From Algoriphagus locisalis (GTDB lineage Bacteria > Bacteroidota > Bacteroidia > Cytophagales > Cyclobacteriaceae), in NCBI RefSeq assembly GCF_900116615.1, contig NZ_FPBF01000005.1, forward strand, positions 1 through 64,000: DNA of 64,000 bases, in the 5' to 3' direction. This document shows, in pieces, positions 6,898 through 61,689 of this stretch (the first letter of the stretch is position 1; each line of letters begins with the position of its first letter). Under the pieces are notes generated by a model. The model saw only the letters and a program-made list of their open reading frames with translations. It had not been told where the DNA came from and did no database searches. Position numbers and translations under genes: made by a program.

Positions 6898-6995
6898 CAT
6901 ATGAAATCGAGCATGAATCAAATATCACACACTGGGATTATTATAGTTCATGCGAGATTCCATATGAGCTCTAAAAGATAAATTATAAGCATATG
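6898..6995 (+). promoter_or_regulatory. Leader element copy 1, upstream of porP and ending on its start codon
   Basis: This is one of six copies of a 97-98 bp element. Arm 1 (6898, CATATGAAATCGAGCATG) is an imperfect inverted match to arm 2 (CATGCGAGATTCCATATG, ending at 6966). Arm 3 is CATATG at 6990-6995 and contains the porP start codon. In this copy the arm 1/arm 2 match extends inward through GAA/TTC. An open frame of 26 codons runs from 6901 to a TAA at 6979-6981. The spacer between the adhesin stop and porP is essentially this element. Role inferred: RNA-level control of translation start. Confidence 0.8.
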
Positions 6996-7967
6996 AAAAC
7001 TACTTTTAAAATCATTGGAATGACCTTTCTGGTGGCCATATTGGCCACCGGGGGGACTTTTGGACAGCAGCTTCCGCAGTTCAGCCAGTATATCTTTAAT
7101 GGGTTACATATTAACCCAGGGTATGCAGGCTATAAGCAGGAAGGCTACATTCAGTCAACTTACCGAAGCCAGTGGGTTAATTTCCCAGGGGCACCGGAGA
7201 CCTTCACCGTCACAGCAGATTTATCTGCAAACGAAGGGACGATGGGATTCGGGGTGTCGTTTCTGAGTGACAACTTAGGGCCAGCCAAAACCACCGGAGG
7301 CTTGTTGACTTATGCTTATCGTATTCAAACGGGAGCCAATAGTCATTTGGGGCTTGGAGTAAGTGCAGGCTTTTCACAATATTCTATTGATGGAAGCATG
7401 CTAGACCCGAATGACTTTCCTGATAGTGAAATACCCGATGGAAGAATCAACCTGACGACACCAAATCTAAACACAGGCTTGTTTTTTAACACTAACAAGT
7501 TTTATGCAGGGTTTAGTGTTTATAATATGATTGGTAAGAAATCTCTCGAAAGAGAAGATGTAGCTCTAGCTTACCATGATTTTCACTTTTACCTTACTGC
7601 AGGTGCCATATTTGATTTTGGACAGACAGTGAAGTTCAAGCCTAGCTTCCTTATCAAGGAAGTAAAAGGAGCTCCGACCAATTATGATATCAACGCGATG
7701 TTCTTGTTTGCAGAGCGAATTTGGGTTGGAGGATCGTACAGAAGCAATATGAAAATCTGGAACGATAATTTGCAAGAGAATCTAGATAGTCGAAATGCAT
7801 TGGCAGCGATTATTGAGATCTACGCTACCAAGCGTTTAAGATTAGGCTACGCCTATGACCATAACCTGAATGTGCTGAGCAACTACAGAAATAACTCCCA
7901 TGAGCTTTCCGTAGGCTACTACATAACTCCGAAAACAGCAGTAATGAAAAACCAAAGATGGTTCTGA
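6993..7967 (+). CDS. PorP/SprF family type IX secretion membrane protein
   Basis: 324 residues with a signal peptide ending near TFGQ and the hallmark family N-terminus (QLPQFSQYIFNGLHINPGYAG). The rest has the alternating pattern of an outer-membrane beta-barrel. Known biology: PorP/SprF proteins work with the type IX machinery, and paralogues beside type B sorting-domain adhesins help secrete or anchor that adhesin. It follows the adhesin gene and abuts the OmpA gene, an arrangement typical of SprB-SprF-type loci. The start is fixed by the signal peptide and by the leader element, whose third arm contains this ATG. Whether it is specific for the upstream adhesin is inferred from position. 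Confidence 0.92.
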   Translation: MKTTFKIIGMTFLVAILATGGTFGQQLPQFSQYIFNGLHINPGYAGYKQEGYIQSTYRSQWVNFPGAPETFTVTADLSANEGTMGFGVSFLSDNLGPAKTTGGLLTYAYRIQTGANSHLGLGVSAGFSQYSIDGSMLDPNDFPDSEIPDGRINLTTPNLNTGLFFNTNKFYAGFSVYNMIGKKSLEREDVALAYHDFHFYLTAGAIFDFGQTVKFKPSFLIKEVKGAPTNYDINAMFLFAERIWVGGSYRSNMKIWNDNLQENLDSRNALAAIIEIYATKRLRLGYAYDHNLNVLSNYRNNSHELSVGYYITPKTAVMKNQRWF

Positions 7968-12599: not shown

Positions 12600-13322
12600 T
12601 TACTTCACGGTAATAAAACCTTCAGAATAGTTTTCGGCGACTTTACCGGCCATCTCTCCAAACATGATAGTGGTACTCTCCAACTCACTGAGCTGAAGGA
12701 TGTTTGGATCTTTAAATAGCTCATCCAGATTTGATGTTAGCGTCAATGAAGTTGGGCTACCAGCGATCACGCCGGTCAGAGACTGTGTAACGGTCCTAAA
12801 GTTTGGGTTAGTGCCTATGTGAATAATAAGGCCTTGTCTTTCTCCGGAATTTGAGTTGGTGAATTCTCCTTCTAGCACAACGAACTTGTAACCTGTGTTC
12901 CAGTTCCAGGCCATGTCTGAATTTGGATCCAAATCTCCTGTCTGATCCGTTTTGCCATTTGCCACTTCATCCACACCTATTGAGAAAGTAAGTTGGTCGT
13001 AATTGGCAGAAGGGATCATTCCCAGGTCGATGCTCTTTTTTCCGTCCTCAGAGATTAAGTGATAGCTATTGGGTTCCACGTAAGTTTCACCGGAAACTGA
13101 GTTCCTCAACGCTACATTTGAGATGTAATACTTGAATTTTTTTGGAGTGAAATCCTCACCTGAAGGAAGAGTAAAAGATTTACCGTTAAGTTCCAAAGTT
13201 TGGCCATCCAGAACATGTTCAAGCGAAATGTCCATTGCCATAGTTGCAGGGACTTCCACATCATCACAAGAAGAGAACATCATAATTGAACCGAATAATG
13301 CTGTATAAATAAGATTTTTCAT
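12600..13322 (-). CDS. MbnP-like lipoprotein
   Basis: 240 residues from the ATG at 13322. The longer frame to 13376 is rejected because the lipobox signal peptide (MKNLIYTALFGSIMMFSSC) starts here and the leader element ends on this codon. The mature part carries the MbnP-family core: a beta-rich start with LELNGKSFTLPSGEDFTPKKF, KYYISNVALRN and a later acidic VDEVANGKTDQTGDLDPN segment near a WNWNTGYKF aromatic patch. Known biology: MbnP binds copper using a kynurenine made from tryptophan by the di-haem partner MbnH. Di-haem proteins on both sides support that pairing. Whether this protein is modified or binds copper cannot be read from the sequence. Confidence 0.82.
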   Translation of the reverse strand: MKNLIYTALFGSIMMFSSCDDVEVPATMAMDISLEHVLDGQTLELNGKSFTLPSGEDFTPKKFKYYISNVALRNSVSGETYVEPNSYHLISEDGKKSIDLGMIPSANYDQLTFSIGVDEVANGKTDQTGDLDPNSDMAWNWNTGYKFVVLEGEFTNSNSGERQGLIIHIGTNPNFRTVTQSLTGVIAGSPTSLTLTSNLDELFKDPNILQLSELESTTIMFGEMAGKVAENYSEGFITVK

Positions 13323-13416
13323 GTGTTTATAATTTTTTTTAAGGTCACATGGAATCTTCGCATGAATTATAATCATCCCTCTGTGTGTCGCTTCGGGTCA
13401 TGCTTGATTTCATATG
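13320..13416 (-). promoter_or_regulatory. Leader element copy 2 (mbnP-proximal member of a tandem pair)
   Basis: 97 bp ending on the mbnP start codon. Read on the minus strand, arm 1 is CATATGAAATCAAGCATG, arm 2 ends CATGTG and arm 3 is CACATG containing the ATG. Arms 2 and 3 have both changed from CATATG and remain exactly complementary. Two single-base insertions relative to the other copies lengthen the arm 1-arm 2 distance from 60 to 62 and break the open frame seen elsewhere. It shares its first six bases with the next copy. Confidence 0.78.
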
Positions 13417-13507
13417 ATTATAATTGATTTTTAAAGGCCATATGGAATCTCGCATGGTGAATAATCATTCCACCGTGTGTCGTTTTCGACATGCTCGATT
13501 TCATGTG
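13411..13507 (-). promoter_or_regulatory. Leader element copy 3 (distal member of the tandem pair)
   Basis: 97 bp just downstream of the peroxidase gene stop (13529). Arm 1 is CACATGAAATCGAGCATG, followed by a TGTCG-AAAA-CGACA hairpin, a GGTG...CACC hairpin, arm 2 GCGAGATTCCATATG and arm 3 CATATG. Arm 3 is also arm 1 of the mbnP-proximal copy, so the pair is head-to-tail with a 6-bp shared edge. A 28-codon frame runs from 13504 to a TAA at 13418-13420, four bases before the next ATG. Confidence 0.8.
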
Positions 13508-17320: not shown

Positions 17321-17765
17321 CTATTGGTTCGAGTCTCATGACTTGGACCTAGTATAATGCAGTCTCCCGACTGCAAATTTACTTGTTGAAATTCGGAAAC
17401 TCTGCTTCACTAGAATCTTGGTAGCGGTATTCAATGAACGTTATTTTTTGTTTGCAAATTCATAATAATTGCTAATCTCGAAAGAGCAGTCTGAAGACTG
17501 CATTATCAATAGTCCAAGTCTAAAGACTTGAACAAGTACCAATAACTTCGATGATTAAATCTGCTTAAATCAGCGGATCTTTTGTCAGACTGATCCTAAA
17601 ATCCTAACTAAATAATATGTACTCAAGCTCTTCAGGAATCTCGTAAATCGCACTTCGTATTTCGTAAATCACTAGAGATTGCTACGTTCCTTCGTCACTA
17701 CCGATGACGTTGAATTTTTATTCCGCGTTCTCTCCGTAGCCTCTCTGCCCTTTGCGGTAAATCGA
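17321..17765. repeat. Intergenic repeat block A (first of a pair flanking the 17994-18713 gene)
   Basis: This block is nearly identical to 18814-19172 over two segments (17321-17530 and 17631-17765). It is built from short palindromes: GCAGTCTCCCGACTGC, CAGTCTGAAGACTG and CAAGTCTAAAGACTTG, a TCGTAAATCGCACTTCGTATTTCGTAAAT tract described here only by its half-words, and a terminal TCTGCCCTTTGCGGTAAAT. About 95 bp (17531-17630) are present here but not in the second block. No protein frame is convincing in the 737-bp gap 17257-17993. Confidence 0.85.
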
Positions 17766-18813: not shown

Positions 18814-19172
18814 CTATTGGTTCAAGGTCTCATGACTTGGACCTAATATAATGCAGTCTCCCGACTGCAAATTTACTTGTTGAAATTCGGAAACTCTGCT
18901 TCACCAGAATCTTGGTAGCGGTATTCAATCACCGGTATTTCTTGTATGCAAATTCATAATAATTGCTAATCTCGAAAGACCAGTCTGAAGACTGCATTAT
19001 CAATAGTCCAAGTCTAAAGACTTGAACAAGTGCCAAGTTCTTCAGGAATCTCGTAAATCGCACTTCGTATTTCGTAAATCACTAGAGATTGCTTCGCTCC
19101 TTCGTCGCTCGCAAAGACGTTGAGTGTATATGCCGCGTTCTCCGCGCAGCCTCGGTGCCCTTTGCGGTAAAA
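18814..19172. repeat. Intergenic repeat block B (second of the flanking pair)
   Basis: Direct copy of block A, differing by scattered substitutions (for example GGACCTAATATAATG against GGACCTAGTATAATG) and lacking the 95-bp internal segment. It ends with the TGCCCTTTGCGGTAAAA word also seen near 16480. The 521-bp gap 18714-19234 is otherwise empty except for the terminator of the M23 gene. Confidence 0.85.
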
Positions 19173-55972: not shown

Positions 55973-56070
55973 CACGTGAAATCGAGCATGTCGGAAGTGA
56001 CACACAGAGGGATGATTATCTCCCAGGCGAGATTCCATATGGCCTTTAAAAGACAAAATATAATCATATG
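55973..56070 (+). promoter_or_regulatory. Leader element copy 4, upstream of susD
   Basis: Arm 1 is CACGTGAAATCGAGCATG, then a TGTCG-GAAG-TGACA hairpin, a GGGA...TCCC hairpin, arm 2 GCGAGATTCCATATG and arm 3 CATATG with the susD ATG. A GTG-initiated frame of 31 codons ends in TGA at 56069-56071, overlapping the susD start codon as ATGA. Confidence 0.8.
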
Positions 56071-57402
56071 AATAATTACCTAAGAATAATATACCTATCC
56101 GGATTCATTTTATGCCTCATCAGCTGCAATGATTTTCTGGATGAAAAGCCAAGCAAAAGTCTGGTGGTACCGACAACACCGGAAGATATACAAGCCCTCC
56201 TGGATGGTGATGGATTGATGAATTCAGATGCGTTTACACTTTTTCTTCAATCTGACGATTTTGAATTGGGGGATGCGGGTGCCGCAGAGTTGGATGATTG
56301 GCAACGCAATGCCGTGTTCTGGAAAGGGGAAATTGACAACCCGGATGGGGTCACATTAGAGTATAGGAATAGTTACGAGAAAATCTTTGTATCCCATTAT
56401 GTGATGGAGCAAGTAAAAGGATTTGAGGATTCCTCTCCCCAAACCAATGAACTCATGGGGCAGGCCTTATTTTATCGGGCTTACGGATACTTTACGCTAG
56501 CCCAGCTGTTTATGCCGGACTATAGAATGGCAAAAGAGTCCGAAGAAGAAATAGTGCCCTTAAGATCTGAATCCCAGTTGGATGTAGATGTGCCAATGGC
56601 TACAGTTTCACAGATGTATGCAGAAATTGTATCTGATCTTGAACAGGCAATTTCTCTTTTGCCGGAAACAGCCAAGTATGTGACCAGGCCTTCCAGAGTA
56701 GCGGCTTATGCATTATTGAGTAGAGTGAATTTGGCGATGGGAGACTATGAAAAAGCCTTGGAGAGTTCCACAGCTGCCTTGGCCATCCGTTCGGAATTAA
56801 TGGATTACAATACTATTGATACAGTAAATACCTATCCCATCCCTTTTCTAAATGAGGAAATCATTTTCAATGGAATCCAAACTGCCTATTCCTTCTCTTT
56901 TTCCACCAATCTACTGGTGAATTCTGAGATTTATGAAAGCTATGATGCTATGGATTTGAGGAAGCCTTTGTATTTTATGCTGAATAGTGAGGGTTCCCCT
57001 AATTTTACCGGAAGCTATAATGGCAATTTTGAACTGTTTTCAGGTATTGCGGTAGATGAACTGATGTTGACTGCTGCAGAATGTACGGTAAGAGCAGGGG
57101 ACCTACAGGCAGGTATGGACTATCTGAATAAGTTGCTGGAAACCCGTTGGGTGACCGGTTACTATGTTCCGTATGTAGCTTCCTCCCAGCAGGAGGCGAT
57201 GGATATCATATTGATGGAAAGAAGAAAAAGTCTCCTGTATAGAAGCACCCGTTGGATGGATTTAAAACGCTTAAGCAATGAACCTTTATTTCACAAAATA
57301 TTGAAAAGGGAAGTAAGTAGTTTTAGTGGGAGTCTGGATCTGAGCCAGGAAGCCTATGCGCTGAAGATCCCGGCAAGAGAATTGGTGTTTGAGGGCAAAT
57401 AG
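56068..57402 (+). CDS. SusD/RagB family outer-membrane lipoprotein
   Basis: 444 residues with a lipobox (LCLISC, Cys20) followed by the typical NDFLDEKPSKSLVVPTTPED. TPR-like helices include GQALFYRAYGYFTLAQLF and RVAAYALLSRVNLAMGDYEK. The C-terminal RagB domain has MDIILMERRKSLLYRSTRW and ALKIPARELVF. Known biology: SusD proteins lie over the SusC barrel and capture the substrate. It is separated from susC by an unusually long 486-bp spacer that ends in the leader element, so susD can be controlled independently of susC. Confidence 0.94.
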   Translation: MNNYLRIIYLSGFILCLISCNDFLDEKPSKSLVVPTTPEDIQALLDGDGLMNSDAFTLFLQSDDFELGDAGAAELDDWQRNAVFWKGEIDNPDGVTLEYRNSYEKIFVSHYVMEQVKGFEDSSPQTNELMGQALFYRAYGYFTLAQLFMPDYRMAKESEEEIVPLRSESQLDVDVPMATVSQMYAEIVSDLEQAISLLPETAKYVTRPSRVAAYALLSRVNLAMGDYEKALESSTAALAIRSELMDYNTIDTVNTYPIPFLNEEIIFNGIQTAYSFSFSTNLLVNSEIYESYDAMDLRKPLYFMLNSEGSPNFTGSYNGNFELFSGIAVDELMLTAAECTVRAGDLQAGMDYLNKLLETRWVTGYYVPYVASSQQEAMDIILMERRKSLLYRSTRWMDLKRLSNEPLFHKILKREVSSFSGSLDLSQEAYALKIPARELVFEGK

Positions 57403-60105: not shown

Positions 60106-60693
60106 ATGGAGACACACTTAGCTCAAATGAAGGAGGACTATGATCAACTGGTCCCGGGACTTTCACTCGATTATCAGAAGTTGAAATTGTACATGTATTT
60201 CCGGAAGAGGAAGAAGGGGACCATACTTAAGGCTCCAAATACTTTAGAGAAATGCAGTCGCTATATATGCAAGGGATATATGGGGCTGATGAAGCAAATG
60301 GAGGATGGAGAAGTGCTCAAGGAAATCTTTGGAAGCACGGATGTAGCCTTTGACTTCAAGTCCTACGCTAAAGAGAAAAAGACCAAATCCTACCTGATCT
60401 GTCTTTCAGATGTGGTCTATTTTGAAGTAAGCAAGGAATCCGAGCTGGACTTAGTGAAGCACTTCCCGGAATTTATCAAGCTGGGTTTGGCTATAAACCA
60501 TCGATTACTCGAAAGAGTCTCTAGGCGCTCCTCGATAAAAGGGAAGGGTATTCACAAAGGCTATAGGAAATTCCTTCAGGATTTTCCAGGTATTGACCGG
60601 GTCTTATCCCAGAATAAAATAGCCACCTATTTTGGATGTACGGACAGGACGGTACGCGCAGTTCAAAAAGAATATAAGGAAACAGACTTATGA
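60106..60693 (+). CDS. Divergent Crp/Fnr-type regulator
   Basis: 195 residues. The N-terminal part (LKLYMYFRKRKKGTILKAPN, GYMGLMKQMEDGEVLKEIFG, YLICLSDVVYFEVSKESELD) aligns in character with the cyclic-nucleotide-binding-like beta-roll of Bacteroidota Crp proteins. The C-terminal KFLQDFPGIDRVLSQNKIAT, then YFGCTDRTVRAVQKEY, is the helix-turn-helix. Ligand-binding residues of true CRP are not evident. The stop TGA overlaps the ATG at the head of the leader element before the terpene synthase gene, so the two are probably on one transcript and the regulator may act on this locus. Confidence 0.72.
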   Translation: METHLAQMKEDYDQLVPGLSLDYQKLKLYMYFRKRKKGTILKAPNTLEKCSRYICKGYMGLMKQMEDGEVLKEIFGSTDVAFDFKSYAKEKKTKSYLICLSDVVYFEVSKESELDLVKHFPEFIKLGLAINHRLLERVSRRSSIKGKGIHKGYRKFLQDFPGIDRVLSQNKIATYFGCTDRTVRAVQKEYKETDL

Positions 60694-60783
60694 AATCGAG
60701 CATGTCGATAACGACACACACTAGCATGGTTATAAACGCTGCGAGATTCCATATGACCATTGAAAAACAATTATAAACATATG
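60687..60783 (+). promoter_or_regulatory. Leader element copy 6, upstream of the terpene synthase gene
   Basis: Arm 1 (CTTATGAAATCGAGCATG) begins within the last codons of the Crp-like gene. A perfect TGTCG-ATAA-CGACA hairpin, arm 2 GCGAGATTCCATATG and arm 3 CATATG with the synthase ATG follow. The 28-codon frame starts at 60690, overlaps the upstream TGA as ATGA and ends TAA at 60774-60776, four bases before the synthase ATG. Confidence 0.8.
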
Positions 60784-61689
60784 AATCAGTACCTACTTCC
60801 TGTGTCAATCAATACTGCCACCCCTTTTTTGGAACCGGAAATCTGTAGCTGGATGTGGGAATCAGGATTAGTTTCCAGTGAACCCAGGTTAGAGCGGATG
60901 CAGGACCAGAAAATCATATGGTTTGCAGGCTATCTCTTCCCGGAAATGGACGCAGGCAAATTAGATTTGATCACCAGGTTTTTCTGCTGTTTGTTTATCC
61001 TGGATGATTTATTGGATGAAGTAGGAACCGATGAATCTATGCTCTTGCTGGAGGCCTTGGCGAATACTACCACTACATCAGCATTGAGGACCTCAGGTAT
61101 CGTTAAGGCTCTTATTGATCAGTTAGGGCTGCTGATGCTGTCCATTTCCCGTTTAGGAAGCGAACATTGGAAGGCGGGATTCTACGCCAGCTGGAGTGAT
61201 TATCTCGAAGCCCAGCAATGGGAAGTTCAGAACAGGATAGCAGGCCATGCTCCTGCACTGGCGGAATACAAAGAAATGAGGCTTTTCAGTTCGGGAGTTT
61301 ATCTCGCACTTCATCTACTAAAGATGGGCTGGACAAACCTGGATTGTCCTGTCAGTTGGATTGAGCAGAAAGTAGGCCGGATTATCTGCCTATCCAATGA
61401 TCTCAGATCCGTTGAAAAGGAAAGAAAAGATCAGGATTTTCATAATGAGTTATTGCTTTTGCAATTGCAGACAGGCTGTAGTGATTCCATAAGCTATAGC
61501 TATGCCAGGAAACAGCTTGAAGGCTTATTCGATCAGTTGTTCAAACTCCTGGAATTGATAAAGGAAAAAGAAGGCTATTCTGAAGCTTGGGTGAATGAAT
61601 TACTTCTGCTCTTAGGTGGCTGTATGTATTGGTCAGATCAGGATACAGCAAGGTACGGGATATCAGTAAATGGAATAAGTAAATTTTAA
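60781..61689 (+). CDS. Class I terpene synthase (cyclase)
   Basis: 302 residues from the ATG at 60781. Both metal-binding motifs are present: Asp-rich D75-D-L-L-D79-E in FILDDLLDEVG, and the NSE triad N206-D-L-R-S210-V-E-K-E214 in LSNDLRSVEKERKD, exactly (N,D)Dxx(S,T)xxxE. Length and spacing (131 residues between motifs) suit bacterial sesqui- or diterpene cyclases. Known biology: Mg-dependent ionisation and cyclisation of a prenyl diphosphate in the cytoplasm. No prenyltransferase, P450 or other tailoring enzyme is in the window, so the product may be the bare hydrocarbon or alcohol (inference). It is under a leader element and downstream of a Crp-like regulator. Confidence 0.85.
   Translation: MNQYLLPVSINTATPFLEPEICSWMWESGLVSSEPRLERMQDQKIIWFAGYLFPEMDAGKLDLITRFFCCLFILDDLLDEVGTDESMLLLEALANTTTTSALRTSGIVKALIDQLGLLMLSISRLGSEHWKAGFYASWSDYLEAQQWEVQNRIAGHAPALAEYKEMRLFSSGVYLALHLLKMGWTNLDCPVSWIEQKVGRIICLSNDLRSVEKERKDQDFHNELLLLQLQTGCSDSISYSYARKQLEGLFDQLFKLLELIKEKEGYSEAWVNELLLLLGGCMYWSDQDTARYGISVNGISKF

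Follow-up and report, generated by a model that had tools for sequence, protein, structure and literature searches.

The DNA analysed here (the window) is a 64,000-nucleotide stretch of the Algoriphagus locisalis genome, positions 1 to 64,000 of contig NZ_FPBF01000005.1. Near its right end, a leader of repeated sequence lies between an upstream open reading frame (ORF) and a terpene synthase gene, with the following features.

60106..60693, + strand: upstream ORF, a host gene of 195 aa, without a Pfam match
60690..60783, + strand: focal unit, from the host's putative original start codon to the new terpene synthase start codon
60690..60692, + strand: left ATG, the putative original synthase start, overlapping the TGA of the upstream ORF (60691-60693)
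60690..60776, + strand: leader open frame, 28 codons plus TAA, ending at -4
60693..60704, + strand: arm 1, AAATCGAGCATG
60703..60716, + strand: inner hairpin TGTCGATAACGACA, which covaries among copies
60726..60735, + strand: loop segment ATGGTTATAA, which partly covaries with the right-end tail
60741..60752, + strand: arm 2, GCGAGATTCCAT
60750..60755, + strand: CATNNG block, pairing with the right-end CNNATG; candidate guide on the antisense strand
60778..60783, + strand: right end CNNATG, with the new start codon at 60781-60783
60781..61689, + strand: terpene synthase, a host gene, PF19086

A sequence-only reading of the window had described the leader frame as coupled on both sides by ATGA-type junctions. 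The overlap of the leader's ATG with the upstream TGA (60691-60693) is real, the junction reading CTTATGAAATCG; the name 'Crp-like' given to the upstream ORF is not borne out, no Pfam family matching at E<=0.001. The synthase has a relative of that ORF upstream of it in 20 of the 20 loci compared, the own locus counted. The site is filled in the window and empty in the closest relative (L292, 77% identity), where the upstream ORF overlaps the synthase as ATGA, the same junction as at the unit's left end. Because the empty locus has it too, the upstream ATGA is an inherited host junction, so that only the downstream half of the proposed coupling, the -4 or ATGA ending, is part of the unit and belongs to its right end.

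The leader is indeed a repeat, as had been claimed, with six full copies in the window. The other five are listed below with their frames.

6901..6995, + strand: unit before the PorP/SprF gene (6993-7967); 26 codons, ends at -11
13411..13504, - strand: first unit of a tandem pair; 28 codons, ends at -4
13320..13413, - strand: second unit of the tandem pair, before an MbnP-like gene, its ATG common with the first; 22 codons, ends at -22
55976..56070, + strand: unit before the SusD-like gene (56068-57402); left start GTG, 31 codons
57757..57850, - strand: most divergent unit of the window (41 bits); 28 codons, ends at -4

The arm-2 string has five matches in the window against 0.03 expected, which places the repeat beyond chance, and no Rfam family matched the window at the gathering score. 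Frames of 26-31 codons had been reported for the leaders and are present in five copies (28, 28, 28, 26 and 31 codons); the sixth, at 13413, has 22 codons and had been called lost, but it reads MKSSMTRSDTQRDDYNSCEDSM to its stop in a shifted register. The susD copy (55976) starts with GTG and not with the ATG assigned to it, and its stop does overlap the susD ATG as ATGA. An ending four bases before the gene's ATG holds for three copies (60690, 13504 and 57850), except that the ATG following the copy at 13504 is that of the next unit and not of a gene, the 13504 and 13413 copies being a head-to-tail pair with a common ATG.

Searched with the 94-base leader (blastn, E<=10), the own genome gave 60 whole or partial matches to a unit of about 91/92 bases. 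Head-to-tail stacks occur, in which the ATG closing one unit also opens the next (C6:665383-665570, C5:183229-183415 and the window pair 13504-13320). With the window copy as query, 12 of 38 genomes (the own genome, 23 of the genus and 14 others of the order) have matches, all of them of the genus and with 1 to 38 matches each; absence depends on the query here, the copies of genome G010 being found with a consensus and not with the window copy. Of 291 genomes of the order searched with the consensus, 28 have matches. Twelve of these belong to the own genus and 11 to other genera of its family; the remaining 5 come from other families and match weakly. A pattern scan of public genomes returned at least 119 stretches, and the 80 listed come from Algoriphagus, Lunatibacter, Lunatimonas, Cyclobacterium, Aquiflexum, Pleomorphovibrio and Pararhodonellum. 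Four of these seven genera are Cyclobacteriaceae by taxonomy look-up, and we take the remaining ones to belong there as well. Thirteen of 15 distant loci hold a version of the unit, and 11 of the 13 versions precede an ORF of at least 100 aa; at L389 the arms read AAACCCGCATG/CATGCGGGTT, altered together, with ATGAAA, CCATNTGACC and the tail kept.

A right-half pattern matched 8 of 395 genomes of the phylum, and its reversed control gave none among the matches listed. Two of the eight lie outside the order: G635 (same class, other order), in which two copies start ORFs of 142 and 434 aa, and G486 (other class), in which 4 of 4 copies stand at ATGAA without a long ORF. The 434-aa ORF of G635, with a distant unit version at its start (L414), is tyrosyl-tRNA synthetase-like by eye. 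No start-codon-targeted element in Bacteroidota was found in the open-licence literature, judged mostly by title, and a string search found no paper on this repeat by title among those listed.

Filled and empty sites were compared at further genes, with 30 loci each out of 40 genomes. For ribF, 2 of 30 genus loci are filled and 28 are without a unit. In the empty locus L206 the flank runs from GCAAGAACGA directly into ATGAAAATC, flank and ATG abutting; the two filled loci have ATGAAATCGAGC...CAT and then ATGAAAAT after this flank. A unit lies upstream of a TrkA-like gene in 9 of 30 loci and of a cystathionine-synthase-like gene in 4 of 30 (both at E<=0.01), with a decayed copy at L234, seen by eye, outside the scored counts. 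Judged from these alignments, the unit has inserted precisely at a start codon: its left ATG occupies the position of the host start in empty relatives, and its right end supplies another ATG. Since a new start codon comes with its far end, the gene would still be readable. The host genes are mutually unrelated (Pfam), and precise insertion before unrelated genes, together with empty sites in relatives, disfavours a regulatory leader common to them.

Target sites were tabulated for 223 distinct units (loci L001-L200; 38 from the own genome, 25 from genus relatives and 160 from the public scan), which remained of 228 once a duplicate and four units whose right end could not be recognised had been removed. 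Both the scan and the arm filters select for well-conserved units. Another unit follows in 60 cases, and 163 units are terminal. ATGAA follows in 158 of the 163 terminal units, with AAA as second codon in 150, and all 8 units with AAT or AAG as the host codon keep TGAAATCG at their left end. The right-end ATG opens an ORF of at least 60 aa in 121 of 163, and 7 of the remainder are cut by the sequence end; the terminal units not preceding an ORF of 60 aa, about a fifth, count against the explanation given below. In 358,503 bases (88 other loci plus the window itself, a crude control), ATGAAA is start-like in 63 of 150 occurrences outside ORFs; a further 298 lie within ORFs and 10 within units. 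By this crude measure start codons are used more than availability predicts. A crude gene set of the window has AAA as its most frequent second codon (10 of 41).

Covariation among the copies was tested with their relatedness disregarded. In 160 of 197 units, the two variable positions of CATNNG and CNNATG both form Watson-Crick pairs, against 60.6 +/- 6.3 and a maximum of 83 in 10,000 shuffles; the two bases before the gene ATG and the two after CCAT are GT/AC in 66, CT/AG in 49 and AT/AT in 44. Inner-hairpin pairs 16/25 (99 of 144 vs 69.0) and 18/23 (113 of 144 vs 83.7) are above every shuffle, 17/24 is within its shuffles, and 14/27 and 15/26 are nearly invariant. The same excess over every shuffle holds for loop-tail pairs 41/-5 (99 of 113 vs 76.1) and 46/-10 (77 of 113 vs 65.0), and the other eight of the ten loop-tail pairs are not above all shuffles. 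Wobble over the five inner-hairpin pairs amounts to 31 G.T vs 22 A.C and points to neither strand as the folding one. Read as antisense DNA, the unit has the layout 5'-CATNNG, A/T-rich linker, CNNATGG, hairpin, TTTCAT-3', and the predicted fold of the focal unit pairs CATATG with CATATG ahead of the hairpin. Fold energies are ordinary against shuffles (z -1.42 as RNA, -1.72 and -1.38 as DNA).

Smaller repeats occur within the units. In the own genome, the 25-base stretch CCCGTATCC[TC]TCGTCACGGGACAGG and its relatives lie directly 3' of CCAT, and a CTGCCTGAGGCAGACAGG palindrome lies inside arm 1 of other units. Small repeats are nested at hairpin tips at loci L009, L014, L016, L025, L031, L032, L040 and L041.

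We interpret the leader as a copy of a non-autonomous mobile element of about 91/92 bases that inserts at start codons and would move as folded single-stranded DNA, and give this reading a probability of about 0.75; the distant versions, which keep the layout with both arms changed together, count in its favour. Movement would be IS200/IS605- or REP-like. CNNATGGAA at the hairpin foot would act as the guide, pairing with CATNNG at one junction and with TTTCAT, the putative target (sense ATGAAA), at the other. Genes here often begin with ATGAAA, and tolerated insertions would therefore collect at start codons. The leader frame would then be the frame now opened by the start codon that the host gene had before, typically 26-31 codons long with its end at -4 or as ATGA, and host expression would go on through reinitiation, through initiation anew on the A/T-rich right end, or through both, with selection presumably not keeping the peptide sequence. 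The excerpted text of PMC6006769 describes IS200/IS605 and REP elements as having such a guide at the foot of the hairpin.

The own genome has 13 matches to PF01797 (Y1), near which there are no arm-2 matches and only weak arm-1 look-alikes. Ten of them have open frames: seven with the Y...Q..HH motif, one truncated, and two (L052 and L054) with YIHQNP as in subclass 2.6, which lie among a different repeat family. The seven genes with Y...Q..HH (L042-L047 and L049) are mutually different and come without a known partner sequence. Among relatives (a genus search, 20 more loci and an HMM scan), the only candidate to emerge was the broken L158 gene, and 56 class-2 Y1 ORFs yielded one broken gene with units inside and nothing else. 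The broken L158 gene is of class 2 (L158:3570-4094, Lunatibacter salilacus) and has two units inside it, which recalls the REPs inside subclass 2.4 tnpA-REP genes as excerpted from PMC6006769. A unit-like stretch 826 b from a Y1 gene at L328 came from a looser scan and was not retained by the HMM scan. Y1 presence does not track unit number across genomes; G014, with 28 matches and 118 first-look candidates, has no PF01797 match and has a 93-residue Y1-like stretch. No mobilising enzyme came out of these searches, which speaks against the mobile-element reading given above.

It is possible, if doubtful, that a mobile element of this kind is moved by something other than a Y1 single-strand transposase. 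No cognate Y1 gene was found and the hairpin foot is CNNATGG, not GT[AG]G, but no terminal inverted repeats are seen, the hairpin carries a covarying guide-like block, and the subclass 2.6 REPs of Bacteroidetes are themselves called atypical, also without GT[AG]G, in the text available from PMC6006769. A direct repeat of about 200 bases in the window (17351-17550 and 18845-19044, about 187/200 identical, offset 1494) has AGTCTTCAGACT-type palindromes, like the surroundings of the two subclass-2.6-like Y1 genes.

Unlike DDE MITEs, the unit lacks terminal inverted repeats, its ends being ATGAAATCGAGC and AATTATAAACANATG (alignment by eye). Rickettsia palindromic elements are likewise small palindromic repeats tolerated in or at genes; they lie in-frame within genes, whereas the unit precedes the gene and renews its start codon. 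With IS200/IS605 (IS608) the unit shares a candidate guide beside the hairpin, complementary by covariation to the putative cleavage site, a target adjoining one end, and no terminal inverted repeats seen; it differs in having no transposase and no ORF beyond the leader, in one hairpin region that seems to serve both ends, and in the target ATGAA. REP/REPtron systems (TnpA-REP, RAYT), as the excerpts of PMC6006769 present them, are also many short structured copies, mostly between genes, non-autonomous and with a guide-like block at the hairpin foot. Against that description, the unit has about 92 bases vs 21-65, its antisense hairpin foot is CNNATGG vs GT[AG]G, it sits at start codons, and no Y1 gene flanked by units was found. 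The free IS605 stem loops near Borrelia lipoprotein genes are likewise transposon hairpins kept beside genes without a transposase, at gene 3' ends and not at start codons according to the part of PMC2775950 at hand.

We think it unlikely that the leader is instead translated under selection for its frame and controls the gene by termination-reinitiation or translation-dependent refolding. In 185 distinct uninterrupted units the frame ends at -4 or +4 in 120, slightly above the 112.6 +/- 3.5 obtained with 3' halves swapped, and it reads into the gene as a fusion in 7 vs 10.4 +/- 2.0, both of which lean towards such a leader; it ends at most 30 bases upstream in 38 (41.6 swapped), stops early in 18 (17.2) and passes the gene start out of frame in 2 (3.2). 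In TTATAAACATATGA, however, a stop falls at the gene start in two of the three frames in any case, so this ending is for the most part inherent in the sequence. The variable part is mildly depleted of in-frame stops (10 of 113 vs 17.8 +/- 2.5, with 0 of 500 column shuffles as low) in the leader register alone, the other two frames not being depleted. This is the best sign of selection on openness, and shared ancestry could produce it. Third codon positions show no excess of variation (0.63/0.57/0.59 bits), and arm 2, read in the ARFHM register in 144 of the 185, is in the other two registers in 27 and 14.

An excess of synonymous changes, which the sequence-only reading had named as support for the frame, is thus absent across the aligned copies. 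That reading's caution that the frame might be a by-product of a conserved element was the better half, given the missing third-position excess, the 41 of 185 in other registers and the losses at the three test genes, ribF and the TrkA-like and cystathionine-synthase-like genes. Of the 15 units adjoining these genes, 7 either have no left ATG or end over 40 bases short of the gene: four have no left ATG (L233, L238, L239, with TTG, and L244; the left end is extrapolated in L238, L239 and L244) and three stop early (L201, L241 and L266). The test genes stay open all the same, so a complete leader is not needed there. As a leader-peptide attenuator, the frame shows neither a peptide conserved with synonymous change nor a start and frame kept where the leader persists (7 of 15 lost or short), and the unrelated host genes and the empty sites in relatives also speak against a translated leader.

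The leader frame is therefore probably a by-product, as far as sequence comparison goes, though termination-reinitiation at -4/+4 is plausible. The unit resembles overlapping stop-start reinitiation pairs, as the excerpted PMC6728339 describes them, in the ATGA or near-abutting junction at its right end, and differs in that this junction is a fixed property of the repeat and the upstream one pre-existed. Bacteroidetes ribosomes do not use Shine-Dalgarno pairing (PMC9976891 and PMC6728339, each in excerpt), and reinitiation in Bacteroidetes is described as not relying on it either (PMC6728339, same excerpt), which would suit a translated leader. Decayed copies still show a recognisable A/T-rich right end, and its persistence fits fresh initiation in a phylum without such pairing. 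Improbable, too, is a conserved regulatory RNA that sequesters the start with CATNNG and was spread by duplication, the frame being its by-product: the new start codon does lie within a covarying helix, and the inner hairpin and loop-tail pairing covary (RNA fold z as above), but precise insertion at one trinucleotide, tandem stacking, copy-number swings between species, unrelated host genes and the G486 copies without a long ORF argue against it, and a regulatory RNA effect could be a side effect of the mobile element.

More broadly, and at a little below even odds, the mobile element may represent a class with versions in several families of Bacteroidota and in two further orders or classes of this phylum. 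Its target recognition would read gene beginnings (ATGAA), and its body would be built to be harmless there. It would borrow the host start for a throw-away frame that ends at the new start, and bring its own start and an A/T-rich initiation region, so that repeated and tandem insertion is tolerated. If this is true, dozens of 'leaders' per genome would be insertions and not regulators, and a fresh look would be needed at start-codon calls, 5' regions and catalogues of small ORFs. The unit would also offer a natural test bed for ribosomes that ignore Shine-Dalgarno signals and face an insertion at the start codon, and for a single-strand guide mechanism in a phylum whose REPs are described only as atypical in the excerpted account of PMC6006769.
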